A stretch of 64,000 bases of DNA, from positions 673,950-737,949 of the forward strand of contig NZ_MSCO01000002.1 of NCBI RefSeq assembly GCF_002954705.1, read 5' to 3'. The position numbers and the translations under genes are program-made. Position 1 is the stretch's first letter; each line of letters begins with the position of its first letter. A model generated the notes under the pieces. That model saw nothing but the letters and a program-made list of their open reading frames with translations, was not told where the DNA came from and did no database searches. Source of the stretch: Aliivibrio sifiae. Lineage in GTDB: Bacteria; Pseudomonadota; Gammaproteobacteria; Enterobacterales; Vibrionaceae. Shown here one piece after another: positions 159-13,436 of this stretch.

Positions 159-455
159 TTAAAGATCCAAGCTAGAAGCAATCGAAACAGGAGAGCATTC
201 AACAGTATGAACAAATACTTCTTTATTTAGCGATTGAAGCTTATCAAAACAAGAACGCGCGTCCTCAAGTAGAAACAACTTAGCTCCAGACAAACACCAA
301 GCAGTAAGAACTCTATTTTTCTTTCCAAAACCAGAAAAGAAACGAAGACCTCTAGATGTATTCACCATGATTACTTTTGATGAGTAAACGAATTTGCGAA
401 CACTTGGATGTTCTTCGGTTGTTTCTACTAATTTCCTAACAGTTATTGTTGTCAT
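159..455 (-). CDS. Hypothetical 98-residue protein of the dif-integrated element
   Basis: A 98-residue, fairly basic protein without signal peptide or membrane segment. The N-terminal part (VRKLVETTEEHPSVRKF) is charged; the rest alternates short beta-like stretches. I recognise no family. It is transcribed away from the DUF3693 regulator at 688, and the 232-bp divergent gap carries three 15-bp direct repeats, so it is probably the first gene of an operon controlled from there. In CTXphi-like phages this place is held by the replication initiator, but this protein is far too short for that. An RstB-like accessory protein is one untested idea. Confidence 0.5.
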   Translation of the reverse strand: MTTITVRKLVETTEEHPSVRKFVYSSKVIMVNTSRGLRFFSGFGKKNRVLTAWCLSGAKLFLLEDARSCFDKLQSLNKEVFVHTVECSPVSIASSLDL

Positions 456-687: not shown

Positions 688-1056
688 ATGTATCAAAATG
701 AACTGTTAGATGCCTACAAAAAGGCGCAGAGCTACGTACAAGACAAGCAAATAGCTATGGATATGAACATTCCACAGCAAAGAATTACTGATTTCAGAAA
801 AGAAAGACGCCATCTATCTGATTCACAAGCTATTTTTCTTGCTCAAGGTGCAAATATTGAACCTGAATTAGCATTACTAGGTTGTCAGGCAGATCGAAAT
901 GAAAATCCCATAATCAAAAGCATGTGGGAAAGCATTGCAAAAAAGTTGAATAGCCACGGATTACAAAGAATATCAATGGCTTGTGGCGGTTTAGCGATGT
1001 GGGTCGGCACCCCTAAAGAAGCCATGGCCAAGTGCGCATTATATATCTTATGTTAA
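688..1056 (+). CDS. DUF3693-family phage-type regulator whose 3' end is the dif site
   Basis: 122 residues. The N-terminal half reads as a helix-turn-helix regulator (residues about 15-45, IAMDMNIPQQRITDFRKERR), followed by a segment predicting where the sequence stands in the family (QAIFLAQGANIEPE). The pattern matches DUF3693 proteins, which I know from filamentous vibriophages and related dif-integrated elements. A good ribosome site, GGAGG at 676-680, precedes the ATG. The last eight codons and the stop lie inside the dif sequence at 1031-1058, so integration at dif completes the gene instead of breaking it. Likely role: repressor or switch protein acting on the repeats at 590-652. The fold call is from family memory, the role is inferred. 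Confidence 0.7.
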   Translation: MYQNELLDAYKKAQSYVQDKQIAMDMNIPQQRITDFRKERRHLSDSQAIFLAQGANIEPELALLGCQADRNENPIIKSMWESIAKKLNSHGLQRISMACGGLAMWVGTPKEAMAKCALYILC

Positions 1057-1058
1057 AT
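1031..1058 (+). other. dif: XerCD dif site (chromosome dimer resolution; element attachment site)
   Basis: The 28 bp have the 11-6-11 layout of dif: AGTGCGCATTA (XerC arm), TATATC (centre), TTATGTTAAAT (XerD arm). From memory both arms equal those of V. cholerae dif1 and the XerD arm equals that of E. coli dif. The centre differs from V. cholerae dif1 (TGTATG) and dif2 (CGTGCG). It marks the right end of the element at 1-1058. A second dif copy should lie left of the window if the element is a complete integrant. The odd centre may come from the element or be the natural one of this replicon. Confidence 0.85.
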
Positions 1059-2011: not shown

Positions 2012-2980
2012 ATGTCAATTTTATTATGGTATAGTTTAGCGTATAAAGCTAAGTTATGGTGCATTAGAATGGTAAAAGACATATTCCTTTCAACTGAATT
2101 AGATATTGGGACATTAGAGGCTCATTTGAGCAAACGGTATTCACATAATAGCTTGCTTTCATTTAAAAATGATTGGAATAACTTTGTTCTATTTTGTCAG
2201 TTACATCATGTAGTTGCTCTGCCCGCCTCTACAACAGCAATTAGAATCTTTATAGAGAAACAAGCAAAAGAAAAAAAACTTGCCTCGATTAAACGTTCAC
2301 TCGTTTCCATCTCAAATATACACACTGCATTTGATTTTAAAGACCCAACCAAAACCGCACAGGTAAAAGTCGCTTTAGGTAAAATCCGTTTAGATAAAAA
2401 AGATGACAACAAGCAGACTGAAGGTATTACAGTGCAGATGCTTGATAAGTTAGAAGCTTTGCTTTTTCATTCTATTGAGCTAAAAGATATTCGTGACTTG
2501 TGTATTTGGCATTTAATGTTTGAATTATTACTAAAGCGTGGAGAACTCCGAGATTTACAATTGGATGATGTGTGCTTCGATGAATCTAACAATGGAATGA
2601 TAAAATTACAGCAATGTTATTACCCACTCTCAGAAAGCACAAACCACCTTCTTTCCAATTGGATTGATGCATCACAAATAAGGAATGGGTATTTATTTAG
2701 AGCGATTGATCGTCACCAAAACGTATCAGATAAGCATTTAAACGATTCGTCAATTTATCGTGTTTTCCGCCGTGCAAATGAATTACTGAATTTAGACATT
2801 CAGTTTTCAGGATTATCTGCACGTGTAGGAGCAACCAAAGAACTTGCTAAAAGTGGTTATTCAATCCATGAGATCCAAGAAATGGGGCGCTGGGTAAGTC
2901 CTGCGATGCCAAACCAATATATAGGTAATATTGAACGCTCTGAGAGGCAAAAGTCGCGTTTTAAAACTAAAAAAGCCTGA
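2012..2980 (+). CDS. Cre-like tyrosine recombinase with altered catalytic residues
   Basis: 322 residues (or 303 from Met20). An N-terminal SAM-like core-binding region (about 30-125) is followed by a catalytic domain (about 135-315). The end resembles phage P1 Cre closely: SGLSARVGATKELAKSG against Cre SGHSARVGAARDMARAG, then GRW and NQYIG. Mapping to Cre gives Arg271, Trp294 and the nucleophile Tyr303 intact. However, the first catalytic Arg is Lys175 (LLLKRGEL in place of LLRIAEI) and the active-site His is Leu268. Strand-exchange activity is therefore doubtful; a DNA-binding or diverged role is possible. It is not next to a recognisable att site, and dif lies about 1 kb away. No strong ribosome site supports either start. 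Confidence 0.75.
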   Translation: MSILLWYSLAYKAKLWCIRMVKDIFLSTELDIGTLEAHLSKRYSHNSLLSFKNDWNNFVLFCQLHHVVALPASTTAIRIFIEKQAKEKKLASIKRSLVSISNIHTAFDFKDPTKTAQVKVALGKIRLDKKDDNKQTEGITVQMLDKLEALLFHSIELKDIRDLCIWHLMFELLLKRGELRDLQLDDVCFDESNNGMIKLQQCYYPLSESTNHLLSNWIDASQIRNGYLFRAIDRHQNVSDKHLNDSSIYRVFRRANELLNLDIQFSGLSARVGATKELAKSGYSIHEIQEMGRWVSPAMPNQYIGNIERSERQKSRFKTKKA

Positions 2981-10117: not shown

Positions 10118-10345
10118 ATGAAACAAACTATTAGTGTTCTACTCCTACTACTCTTTTCTTCGTTTAGTCTTGCTAAAAGCGTTGAAAAATATTATCAAGA
10201 GCACCAACCAAAGCGTTGCGAAACTCTCAATAGAACCCTTACTCACGTGAATAAATTACTTAGCTTTAGCGAAGGAAAAGAATACAAAGAGAGACTTAAA
10301 GAGAAAAAGGCATTAAAGAAATTACGAAAAGAAAAAAGTTGCTAA
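10118..10345 (+). CDS. Small secreted protein, Cys-containing, highly basic
   Basis: 75 residues from the ATG at 10118; a TTG four codons upstream is less likely. A clear signal peptide (KQTISVLLLLLFSSFSLA) is cleaved before KSVEKYY, leaving about 56 residues, rich in Lys and Glu (KEYKERLKEKKALKKLRKEKSC), with two Cys that could pair in the periplasm. I do not recognise a characterised family; the pattern looks like a conserved small Vibrionaceae protein. It stands alone, ends in a hairpin, and converges with mog. Confidence 0.6.
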   Translation: MKQTISVLLLLLFSSFSLAKSVEKYYQEHQPKRCETLNRTLTHVNKLLSFSEGKEYKERLKEKKALKKLRKEKSC

Positions 10346-10349
10346 TAAG

Positions 10350-10373
10350 AAAGCCAACAGACATGTTGGCTTT
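10350..10373. terminator. Bidirectional terminator between the small secreted gene and mog
   Basis: Stem AAAGCCAAC (10350-10358) and GTTGGCTTT (10365-10373) with a 6-nt loop between convergent genes. Confidence 0.75.
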
Positions 10374-10393
10374 AAATTCTTTAAAAGATATGA

Positions 10394-10930
10394 TTATTTT
10401 GCTTTTGGTCTAAAAGGTTTAATCACTTCTTCGTTACACTCAAGAAATGGACCTTCCATTAAATCAATACAATATGGGATAGCAGGGAAAACAGCATCTA
10501 AACATTCACGGATTGACTTTGGCTTACCTGGTAAATTGACGATTAATGAATCTTTACGTAAACCAGCCGTCTGGCGAGACAAGATAGCTGTTGGTACAAA
10601 CTTTAGAGATTCAGCTCGCATTAACTCACCAAAACCAGGCATCATACGATCACACACTGCTTCTGTTGCTTCCGGTGTAACATCACGCTTTGCCGGACCA
10701 GTGCCACCAGTAGTTACCACTAAACAGCAACCTTTATCATCTGTTAGTTCAATCAGCGCCTTTTCAATCACATCTTGTTCATCTGGGATAACTACGTACT
10801 CTGGTTCCCATTCTGACGTTAAATAATCATTCAGTGTTGCAATGATTGCTGGGCCTGAAATATCTTCGTAGATACCAACACTTGCACGATCACTAACTGT
10901 TACGATGCCAATTTTTGCTTTTTTAGTCAT
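10394..10930 (-). CDS. mog: Molybdopterin adenylyltransferase MogA
   Basis: 178 residues, MoaB/Mog family length. The family loop TTGGTGPAKRDVTPEAT (about 90-106) and the second motif NLPGKPKSIRECLDAVFPAIPYCIDLM (about 133-158) are present. MogA adenylates molybdopterin with ATP in the cytoplasm before molybdate insertion by MoeA. Read in the same direction, it lies 41 bp upstream of the TraF-like gene; no other molybdenum cofactor gene is in the window, so it acts at a distance from its pathway partners. Confidence 0.92.
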   Translation of the reverse strand: MTKKAKIGIVTVSDRASVGIYEDISGPAIIATLNDYLTSEWEPEYVVIPDEQDVIEKALIELTDDKGCCLVVTTGGTGPAKRDVTPEATEAVCDRMMPGFGELMRAESLKFVPTAILSRQTAGLRKDSLIVNLPGKPKSIRECLDAVFPAIPYCIDLMEGPFLECNEEVIKPFRPKAK

Positions 10931-10971
10931 AATGAATTCTTATTTAAGTAAGGTGCCCCATTATTACAGAT

Positions 10972-12201
10972 TTAGTATTCGTAAGCCATATTGACTGAGA
11001 CACCATAAGTTGAATCTACTGAATAGATTGCAGCTAAATCTAAATGAAACATATTCAATGGCGAAAAGCCAATACCTGCCGTAAATGCATCATCATATGT
11101 ACCTGCTAGATCTTTCTTAAAACCACCACGTAATTGAATTTGATATAATAGGTCAAACTCAGCACCAATTCTTAGCATCTGCATATTATCGTTTAATTCA
11201 ACAAAACGTTCTTGTTCATTAAGATCAACGTCAGCGGTCAAAATAAAGTAGTTCGTCATAAAGGCAATACCAGCGGTATAAATTGGTTCCATATTATAAG
11301 TATATTGAGTAATACGAGTTTGTTTTCCAGGTCCACCAGTATAACTAGGATCACCAACAAGTTTACCTATTTCAGCGTCAGATAAACCTACCGTTATTGA
11401 TGATTCTTTTGTCTTAATTTCTTGAGATATTAAATTTTTACCTGCAAGAGCAAAGCGCCACGGCCCATGAAACCATACAGTACCAACATCAAAATTAAGG
11501 TTAGTTTCACCTGTTTCATAATTATCTGTGATATCTTTAAATTTAAAGTCGACAGCTGATGCACTGTAATTAAAAGTGTAACTTTGCTGAATTTTTGGCG
11601 TGATGCCGATAGTTAAATTTTGACCTAAGAAATTAGTATAACCTGCAAAAGCTACCCCAATTTCTGTAATACCAATAGCAGCAGAATCGACTGTTGCATA
11701 TGATATATCAAGAACATTCGCTAATGCAGGATCCGGTAAAGCACCATAAGATTGACTTTCTACATCAGCGATAGCAACAGATTCCAATGAAGCTTTTGCA
11801 TAAAAGTTCATAGATAAATAACGGTTAGGGATAGCTATTGCAATTGCAGTCCCCATTTGAATTTGTGCGGTATCTTCAGACAAATCAGACAGTGCTTTTG
11901 TTGCTCCAGGAACGTCTATCTTATCGTAAGCGTTTATTAAGCTATCAAGATCATCAATCATGTTGTCTTTATCAACAACTTGAAGACCAAAACTTGGCAG
12001 TAAAAGACCTACATCATCTTTACGACTATAAATAGCAATTAATGCGGGGTTATAAAAGACACCAGTAAGATAATCGGCAGATGCTGTACCTGCACTACCC
12101 ATCGCATCAATACGACCATCAACACTAAAGTTAGTTGCTAATGCTGGTGAAGAAGCGGCTGTTGCACATGAAAGTAAGCCAATTTTTATCCACTGTTTCA
12201 T
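10972..12201 (-). CDS. TraF/FadL-like outer membrane protein
   Basis: 409 residues with a signal peptide cleaved near ALA-TNFSVDGR (about residue 22). The N-terminal mature part, RIDAMGSAGTASADYLTGVFYNPALIA, is typical of the FadL-like beta-barrel group named TraF_2 (often annotated as conjugal transfer protein TraF). The rest alternates polar and aromatic beta strands and ends VSVNMAYEY, with the terminal aromatic expected for barrel assembly. No conjugation genes are near, so the TraF name should not be read as function; a role in uptake of hydrophobic compounds is only a guess. It lies just upstream of nothing co-directional except mog, which precedes... it is read from 12201 toward mog. 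Confidence 0.75.
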   Translation of the reverse strand: MKQWIKIGLLSCATAASSPALATNFSVDGRIDAMGSAGTASADYLTGVFYNPALIAIYSRKDDVGLLLPSFGLQVVDKDNMIDDLDSLINAYDKIDVPGATKALSDLSEDTAQIQMGTAIAIAIPNRYLSMNFYAKASLESVAIADVESQSYGALPDPALANVLDISYATVDSAAIGITEIGVAFAGYTNFLGQNLTIGITPKIQQSYTFNYSASAVDFKFKDITDNYETGETNLNFDVGTVWFHGPWRFALAGKNLISQEIKTKESSITVGLSDAEIGKLVGDPSYTGGPGKQTRITQYTYNMEPIYTAGIAFMTNYFILTADVDLNEQERFVELNDNMQMLRIGAEFDLLYQIQLRGGFKKDLAGTYDDAFTAGIGFSPLNMFHLDLAAIYSVDSTYGVSVNMAYEY

Positions 12202-12333
12202 TTTTTATAAGCCTAATAAAGATAGTTAACTCTTTATCGACTCTAGCCATCGTAACTTTAGAGGAATTTAAACATTTATATTAATATTTAAAATAGATAA
12301 GGAAGATACAAATAAATGATGAATGGATATAAA

Positions 12334-12359
12334 AAACCGAGATACTAAGATCTCGGTTT
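12334..12359 (-). terminator. Terminator of the vxr operon
   Basis: Ten-base-pair stem AAACCGAGAT (12334-12343) and ATCTCGGTTT (12350-12359), 6-nt loop, followed on the minus strand by a T-run. It lies 5 bp past the stop of the yoaH-like gene and closes the vxrA-vxrB-vxrC-yoaH unit. Confidence 0.85.
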
Positions 12360-12363
12360 CATA

Positions 12364-12516
12364 TTATTTCTTCGCTTTCTCAGCTATTTCTGCTCGTATT
12401 TGCTCTGAAATCATTTTAATTGCTTCACCACTACTAACACCTTGACGCATTAGTTCTTGGATTTTTTCTACCGCTTGTTGTTGCTCTTCATGAGTTAACG
12501 TTGGTAAATCTAACAT
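12364..12516 (-). CDS. yoaH: UPF0181 (YoaH) family protein, last gene of the vxr operon
   Basis: 50 residues: [19 protein letters not shown], then [16 protein letters not shown] and a charged helix. This matches E. coli YoaH ([29 protein letters not shown]) almost position by position. Its ATG overlaps the stop of the preceding vxrC-like gene (TAATG), so translation is probably coupled. In V. cholerae the last gene of the vxrABCDE operon is, as I recall, also a UPF0181 protein (vxrE). Molecular function is unknown. It is short enough to be missed by automatic gene calling. Confidence 0.88.
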
Positions 12517-13436
12517 TAGTTGCTCTCTACATTTTCTGATGCATCAAAATTGATGACTTTTGTAATTGCTTGTATTTCTTGAATCGAAATGGGCCCTTGA
12601 AAACGCTTATGGTTAAATGAAACACTTAAAATGTAGCTTCCAGGTAGTACATTTGTTGACGGTAAACTTTTAGGGAATTTCTCTTCATACTTCTCTTCCC
12701 ATAACTTTATGTATTCATTGTCTTGATGATCATAAATAGCGACCGACATTTCAGGTAATGGACAATTTGATTTAAGCAGTCCTGTTTGTGTTGTCTTCCA
12801 CTTTTCTTTACCTAGCCAAGATACTGCCATTTCAGTTTTAGGAGTACTTAATACTATCCATGTTTCCCATTGAGTCTTTTCTTTATCATCAGCGGTAATA
12901 ATTAACTTATATAGACCATTCTTAACACGGTTATTAAGAGATTCACTCGCGTAGATATATTGTGTTACGGCTTCGTCTTGAGTCGGCACCCGCTTCACTG
13001 ATGGATTTACCAATAACTCTTCATCTGGCCACTTTATAAAAGAGATGGATGAAATACTTTTTTCACTATCAAATTGGACGATCATTCTATGATGTAATCG
13101 ACCGGGGCTTTGTATTATAACTCTTTGTACACTCAACGATGTTAGCCATTTAGGGACCACTATTGTTGAAAGATCACGACCACAATTATTTGAAATGGCC
13201 AACCCCATGAGCTGATCAATATTTTGAATAATATTGTTATCTGCTGAGCTCTGTAGCACTTCAATTACTGTAGAAAAGCCCTTTAAAGTATTACCTTCAA
13301 GGAATTGTTTATGGGCAGTAAAAAGCGCAGACTGTTCATTAAACCAGTCTGCAGAGTTAGCTACCGCTCCATGTATTAAACAAAAAAAGCCAATAATAAA
13401 AATGGCAATTTTTTGTGGAAGCTGACGCAATAGCAT
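12516..13436 (-). CDS. vxrC: VxrC-like periplasmic protein (DUF2861)
   Basis: 306 residues with a signal peptide ([18 protein letters not shown], cleaved near residue 27). The mature part has a helical N-terminal third ([21 protein letters not shown]) and a beta-rich C-terminal part. I assign it to DUF2861, the family I associate with vxrC next to the VxrAB two-component system. It starts 2 nt after the vxrB stop and overlaps yoaH, so it belongs to the operon. Its role in VxrAB signalling is not established from sequence. Confidence 0.72.

Follow-up and report, generated by a model that had tools for sequence, protein, structure and literature searches.

An inovirus DUF3693 gene in Aliivibrio sifiae that appears to be closed by the host dif site

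The window, i.e., the whole stretch of 64,000 nucleotides analyzed here, stems from contig C2 of Aliivibrio sifiae and opens with the right end of an integrated inovirus, which meets the host chromosome at dif, where the cell resolves chromosome dimers. The features around this junction are the following.

1-1041, no strand assigned: right end of the integrated inovirus; phage DNA through the XerC arm, the rest running left to position 665252 of C2, with phage gene families between
159-455, minus strand: small phage ORF of 98 amino acids; PHROG 37694 (unknown function; E = 4e-14), no Pfam match
688-1056, plus strand: DUF3693 regulator gene, with 122 codons when integrated; PF12472 (E = 5.7e-19) and PHROG 638, transcriptional regulator (E = 3.6e-42)
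1031-1041, plus strand: XerC arm, phage-derived, in-frame codons 115-118 (K C A L); relatives used to place the crossover point
1042-1047, plus strand: central hexamer TATATC, host-derived, codons Y I; centre conserved in the genus
1048-1058, plus strand: host-derived XerD arm TTATGTTAAAT, with codons L C plus the stop
1054-1056, plus strand: TAA stop of the phage gene, inside the host XerD arm

With a PF12472 score of 67.9 bits against a gathering cut-off of 21, the regulator is a member of DUF3693, and it also shows weak transposase-like matches (E between 0.003 and 0.0075). AlphaFold2 models residues 1 to about 80 with confidence, as an N-terminal helical part, while residues 90-122 have a pLDDT below 50; the remaining four models scored lower. 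The gene enters the XerC arm at the second base of codon 115 and ends with AAG TGC GCA TTA TAT ATC TTA TGT TAA, which are the codons that the first-pass annotation had read when it proposed that dif coincides with the end of this gene. Of the three sense frames through this dif site, a single one contains a stop. Judged from the sequence, dif is thus the supplier of the last codons and the TAA of a phage gene.

The site at 1031-1058 (AGTGCGCATTA-TATATC-TTATGTTAAAT; 28 bp, 11-6-11) has the characteristics of a chromosomal dif. Its arms are identical to those of the dif site on contig C1, and with up to three mismatches allowed only two dif sites are found in the 4.46-Mb genome, one each on C1 (2.50 Mb) and C2 (1.45 Mb), the window site lying mid-contig at 46.6% along C2. 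None of 200 mononucleotide shuffles of the neighboring ~19 kb reached 21 out of 22 arm letters (best: 17). The site also exists without a phage: contig C2 of genome G006 carries an empty chromosome 2 site with a single dif, around which 587 nt on the left and 331 nt on the right match at 93.5% and 88%, respectively. The central hexamer had been suspected to be derived from the element. However, a comparison of the dif centres on both chromosomes of 14 genomes of the genus refutes this suspicion: 13 of them have one dif with TATATC as its centre, 10 of these 13 lacking a DUF3693 match, and such a match occurs in only three of the 14 genomes. TATATC is therefore host DNA.

The same comparison yields some observations on the sites themselves. 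Across the dif loci L003, L004 and L214-L239, a TGTATA-like centre on chromosome 1 is combined with a TATATC-like centre on chromosome 2 in eight genomes and the arrangement is reversed in six (G001, G005, G006, G008, G009 and G012), chromosomes being assigned by flank matches, except for chromosome 1 of G010 (centre ATAACA), which was assigned by elimination. The two centres of one genome are unlike each other in all 14 genomes. G006 has the strongest flank matches to the present genome, yet is among the genomes with swapped centres. Decayed DUF3693 3' ends were seen by eye to the left of dif on chromosome 2 of G008 (L221) and G013 (L239), both genomes without a DUF3693 match; by the same visual judgment, they look like remnants of older integrations.

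Downstream of dif, a conserved host element is present on both chromosomes (window ~1121-1201; L002 ~1600-1680 on the other chromosome). It comprises a hairpin (GCTAATAATCA...TGATTATTAGC; z = -5.06) and an inverted XerD-like arm (TTATGGTAAAT), and an Rfam scan of it gave nothing at gathering score. By blastn, it has a match in 100 of 121 Vibrionaceae genomes; among the matches listed, 89 out of 98 lie 47-146 nt (median 83) downstream of the dif core on the same strand. In five of the nine exceptions (G004:C1, G054:C23, G057:C1, G039:C3 and G068:C2), the element is found 11-43 kb downstream of the nearest listed dif, again on the same strand, a spacing that may stem from DNA inserted between dif and its former flank. 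A tyrosine-recombinase-like gene (2012-2980, plus strand; PF00589, E = 7.2e-14) follows about 950 bp to the right of dif and scores far under the cut-offs of the XerA, XerD and XerC models. The flank that holds most of this gene (1211-2710) matches the chromosome 2-type dif locus in 14 out of 14 genomes of the genus.

To the left, the second dif-like site that the first-pass annotation had expected exists 9,728 bp from dif, outside the window (AGTGCGCATTA-TGAGTGC-TTATGTAAAAT; L005:9753, position 665252 of C2). It was found by an arm-by-arm scan; a pattern with a 6-bp centre found none, since the centre of this site counts 7 bp. The site reads as a single 29-bp attP (11-7-11), with an 11-bp XerC arm, the 7-bp centre and an XerD arm with 10 of 11 letters. 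This junction pair supports phage integration at dif, and the interval is thus filled by a filamentous prophage of the VGJ/f237 type. The gene set of filamentous phages (replication initiator, ssDNA-binding, coat, Ace-like and Zot-like proteins) is present, with matches to Rep_trans (replication initiator; E = 4.5e-14), DUF1293 (E = 2.4e-39), PHROG 6548 (coat protein; E = 1.5e-18), PHROG 306 (Ace-like protein; E = 6.1e-15) and Zot (E = 3.2e-33). No integrase family was found in the 10 element proteins scanned (E 0.01), which represent part of the ORFs of the element. A DUF3653-like gene sits just inside the left junction. Between it and the Zot-like gene lies a cargo region (L005 ~10250-12668) with a HIRAN-domain protein (E = 2e-14) and a long ORF in which a HipA-like kinase motif is visible by eye. 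A candidate inner junction at L005:12820 (XerC-like 9/11, XerD-like 6/11) was rejected, as it lies in a stretch of short GC-rich inverted repeats that by eye is phage intergenic sequence. Promoter-like and terminator-like sites at both prophage ends showed no excess over shuffles.

The host centre TATATC at the right junction and TGAGTGC at the left point to an exchange at the XerC arm. The XerC arms are identical at both ends here, so that the crossover point has to be read from relatives. For all 23 prophage rows of which both ends were read (21 distinct contigs, none dropped), the left centre counts 7 bp and the right centre 6 bp, and in nine of the 23 the XerC arms differ between left and right. 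The junctions fit one exchange between the XerC arm and the centre, by which the arm is phage DNA and the centre, the XerD arm and the stop are host DNA. A different Xer route, either XerD-first as for TLCphi or with a single-stranded attP as for CTXphi, could be thought of in view of the VC1465-like gene of this phage, a family named after the TLC region. It is nevertheless highly improbable: an XerD-side exchange would put the host centre on the opposite side, whereas the centres differ in all 23 rows with the host centre on the XerD side, and attP is one 11-7-11 site with 10 of 11 XerD-arm letters instead of a pair of inverted sites. The exchange between XerC arm and centre corresponds to the mechanism described for VGJphi, for which the accessible text reports a 29-bp attP and an XerC-only exchange at dif1 (PMC4246890). 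We infer that XerC is the enzyme here as well and that excision occurs in this strain. Nearly all distinct phage half-sites (40 out of 41) begin with T, as dif does. The exception is VFJ, which in the part of its description available was a plasmid only under the conditions tested, with no integration reported (PMC3731265).

We then analyzed how DUF3693 genes end across the family, in a sample of several sources. From the family-wide matches, it draws on a part, namely 30 given loci and 80 fetched stretches; from IMG/VR, the best 80 of 160 were taken, which weights the sample toward V. parahaemolyticus-like phages. Out of 217 rows, 205 have a classifiable end; the other 12 lie at or near a contig end or are cut short (n = 11) or have no att site found (L096). 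These 205 correspond to 194 distinct ends, distinct meaning a different DNA sequence from the start codon to the XerD arm, by which a contig-cut gene may count beside its complete twin. A complete dif is found at 150 of the distinct ends, a 7-bp att at 27 and other half-sites at 17. Among the 150 dif-ended genes, 149 share one phase of the XerC arm and 145 take their stop from the XerD-arm TAA; the five exceptions to the latter are three contig-end cuts, L104, which is out of frame upstream, and L072, which has a changed arm. Beside the DUF3653-like gene, 72 rows were examined, of which 10 lie at contig edges and nine have no att found (including VCY, with an arm under the threshold); the remaining rows carry a 7-bp centre in 52 out of 53 cases and an 8-bp centre in one. 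With a 7-bp centre, the XerD-arm TAA falls out of frame. A 122-codon end of the xxLC-stop type at a non-dif locus, named beforehand, in combination with the lack of a left site, as the finding that would speak against a coupling of gene end and att site, occurs in none of the 194 classified ends. In weak rows (e.g., L138, L156, L159-L161, L163, L167, L170, L171 and L194), the gene runs past the XerC arm into dif-unlike half-sites with endings such as YVKGLI, YSCLC, YVMW and CAWNYVEG; such ends probably arise where the phage adjoins other elements arrayed in tandem at dif.

Free and integrated forms can be compared directly in relatives. Genome G203 holds one phage in three states, with a gene core that is 100% identical over 343 nt: the DUF3693 protein counts 154 amino acids in the episome and 122 on both chromosome 1 (ending CILC) and chromosome 2 (YVLC). 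The episome contig (6,702 bp) is taken as a circle because its two ends are contiguous in both prophages. Similarly, VALGphi8 is described as extrachromosomal in strain K04M1 in the available text (PMC7761403), and the episomal gene of K04M1 encodes 160 amino acids versus 122 for the genome copy L064, which ends in a complete dif (core 99.7%); the integrated record VALG8 ends inside the XerD arm. The alignment of circular and integrated C-termini, the gene-end survey and the junction pairs together bear out the earlier proposal that integration rebuilds the end of the regulator. As far as DNA can tell, it is evident where the junctions lie, that the gene end is of host origin, that the frame rule holds across the family and that relatives have both forms. 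In the clade of the window (L005, L135 and L020/L137), TGA follows directly after the XerC arm. Predicted from attL, the free form of the present phage's gene should count 118 residues; of the two outcomes foreseen for the excised form, a different C-terminus is thus predicted, but the frame would not stay open for this phage. From the predicted end of the 118-residue gene to the first ATG of its neighbor there are 62-63 nt without overlap, a gap that makes translational coupling impossible here. L135, of which the protein is 96% identical, is integrated at a dif whose centre reads TGTATA, and its protein has the ending CILC.

Whether the tail matters was addressed with 41 distinct half-sites, grouped into 21 lineages (<85% identity). 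In 15 of the 21 lineages, the frame of the gene runs on without a stop for at least 22 codons after the XerC arm, compared to one of 21 for each other frame. Beyond the XerD arm, 17 of 21 lineages keep this frame open, whereas 2000 dinucleotide shuffles gave 6.6 on average and never more than 14; for this test it holds that the lineages are not independent and that the fixed XerD arm by itself closes one of the other frames. For the tail-only stretch, the Ka/Ks ratio is 1.0 when read in frame with the gene and 0.63 and 0.66 in the other two frames, while the overlap stretch in the neighbor's frame has a ratio of 0.25. Openness thus appears to be kept, and the sequence of the tail not. The claim that gene function depends on the junction finds no support here, given a tail without detectable amino-acid selection. 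The overlap may then be neutral: the end of DUF3693 would tolerate att, function would be confined to residues 1 to about 114, and both the tail and the separation of the genes would be without effect. We give this explanation slightly less than an even chance. It agrees with the ratio of 1.0, with free forms, predicted or observed, that span 118-160 residues, with the immediate stop after the XerC arm in the window clade and with the 17 further ends that have other half-sites and other tails. The 17 open lineages against the shuffles and the stops within 22 codons in the other two frames (20 of 21 lineages each) argue against it. A functional swap, by which the host-written end would alter a hydrophobic C-terminal helix and hence the activity of the regulator in the prophage, is improbable. 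The C-terminal third is indeed hydrophobic in several relatives (maximum over 19 residues on the Kyte-Doolittle scale 1.34-2.21), and a transmembrane stretch is predicted in the altered end of VAIphi ORF9 in the text at hand (PMC7412436). The present protein, however, reaches only 0.75 integrated and 0.71 free, its residues 90-122 are modeled with the low confidence mentioned above, and the tail lacks amino-acid selection.

Integration leaves the DUF3653-like gene and the DUF3693 gene at opposite ends of the prophage. The name of the former reflects a PF12375 score of 21.8 bits, under the gathering cut-off of 22.4, which is also just missed by VGJ ORF136 (20.3) and XacF1 ORF11 (20.7). Against the NCBIfam family of VC1465 Xer-activation factors (NF040522), it scores 48.4 bits (E = 8e-13), under the curated cut-off of 70. 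Such a match is found in seven out of seven phages (this one, VGJ, VFJ, VCY, Vaf1, PQ189320 and XacF1; E = 2.6e-4 to 6.9e-13), always under 70 bits, which suggests that the neighbor is a remote relative of the VC1465/XafT Xer-activation factors. In the accessible part of a previous report (PMC10790759), the f237 counterpart ORF9 is classed, from a weak match, as an RstR-like repressor, with no function given for ORF10. A literature search for XafT and DUF3653 gave only unrelated papers among the matches listed. In 31 of 40 distinct halves, the long form of the DUF3693 gene overlaps the first ATG of the neighbor by 4-92 nt; six show a gap and for three the scan gave no start. This is the arrangement expected for translational coupling, the lineages being related and the test not independent.

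Taken together, the locus is very probably explained by an inovirus of the VGJphi/f237 type at the dif of chromosome 2, of which the DUF3693 gene is closed by host dif. The attP would lie inside the 3' end of this gene with its XerC arm in frame, and an exchange at the inner edge of that arm would join codons 1-118 to host dif. The 6-bp host centre would bring the XerD-arm TAA into frame, by which the prophage gene ends YILC-stop. In the free circle, the gene would be followed by the phage half-site with its 7-bp centre, which in most sampled relatives would keep the frame open into an overlap with the start of the DUF3653-like gene and in the window clade would give an immediate TGA. It is quite conceivable, at a probability somewhat under one half, that moving the Xer-activation-like gene away from DUF3693 dampens its expression and makes the prophage more stable. 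More tentatively, attP might act as a frame- and operon-level switch, integration silencing the phage's own helper and fixing the integrated state. In most relatives, ribosomes would read through the DUF3693 gene of the free form, with its 7-bp centre, into the gene resembling Xer-activation factors, while in the prophage the 6-bp host centre would let the TAA end translation and the activation-factor gene would be stranded at the far end. The host's dimer-resolution site would then serve as a stop codon, and the window clade would have lost read-through and kept gene separation only.

Several parts of this picture have precedents. Like VGJphi, fs1, VEJphi and f237/Vf33, the phage has a DUF3693 gene (ORF154 in VGJ) with an attP from codon 115 and a 7-bp-centre att; as in the VGJphi group, a DUF3653-like gene (VGJ ORF136) lies directly behind it, and the VGJ record itself annotates attP inside orf154. 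Unlike this group, in which the free form counts 148-154 amino acids, the form predicted here has 118, the two genes do not overlap and there is extra cargo with the HIRAN-domain protein. The Xanthomonas phages XacF1, phiXv2 and phiLf also carry attP inside a DUF3693 gene (XacF1 ORF12; E = 4.4e-14), followed by a DUF3653-like gene. For XacF1, the texts as far as available describe that integration splits the regulator gene and that loss of its 5' part slowed integration and made the prophage unstable (PMC5666396; PMC4076744). The Xanthomonas-type att lies antisense at the end of the DUF3693 gene in four out of four phage records (XacF1, phiXv2 and two of phiLf) and at genome locus L244, the latter counted as Xanthomonadales-type by resemblance. 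Its frame differs between XacF1 and phiLf; in contrast to the present phage, att is thus antisense and variable in frame, and the XerD-arm TAA plays no part. The two phiLf records agree in sequence as far as the att core and differ from there on. Compared to Vibrio, att would either have been placed more than once or been inverted, the place being kept and the detail not. A class-wide survey found DUF3693 in only five of 369 genomes, including the window's own and three weak matches among the five, so that the picture outside Vibrionaceae rests on five Xanthomonadales-type examples. VAIphi of V. anguillarum similarly integrates at dif-like sites of both chromosomes, by which one phage ORF keeps its frame with an altered C-terminus, reported in the available text as extended upon integration, unlike here (PMC7412436). 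In a survey of 2009, six of 161 dif sites lay in coding sequences, one of them in a phage gene on chromosome 1 of V. parahaemolyticus; in contrast to the present analysis, its accessible part contains no frame rule, free form or family survey (PMC2731167). A C-terminal change on integration is hence already published, in the texts as available, for phages of Xanthomonas and V. anguillarum. Neither the 6/7-bp frame rule nor the family-wide host-supplied stop was found in print in a limited literature search of partial texts, which gave no paper on DUF3693 by name and none combining VGJ and orf154.

The Vibrionaceae inoviruses thus offer a natural comparison in which a host site closes a phage reading frame, and in which one base in the att centre (7 versus 6) decides whether this frame continues or stops. 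For annotation, it implies a warning: the C-termini of chromosomal DUF3693 proteins are host-written and should not be taken for phage sequence. If gene separation silences the Xer-activation-like gene, it would provide a simple reason for the stability of prophages without an integrase.
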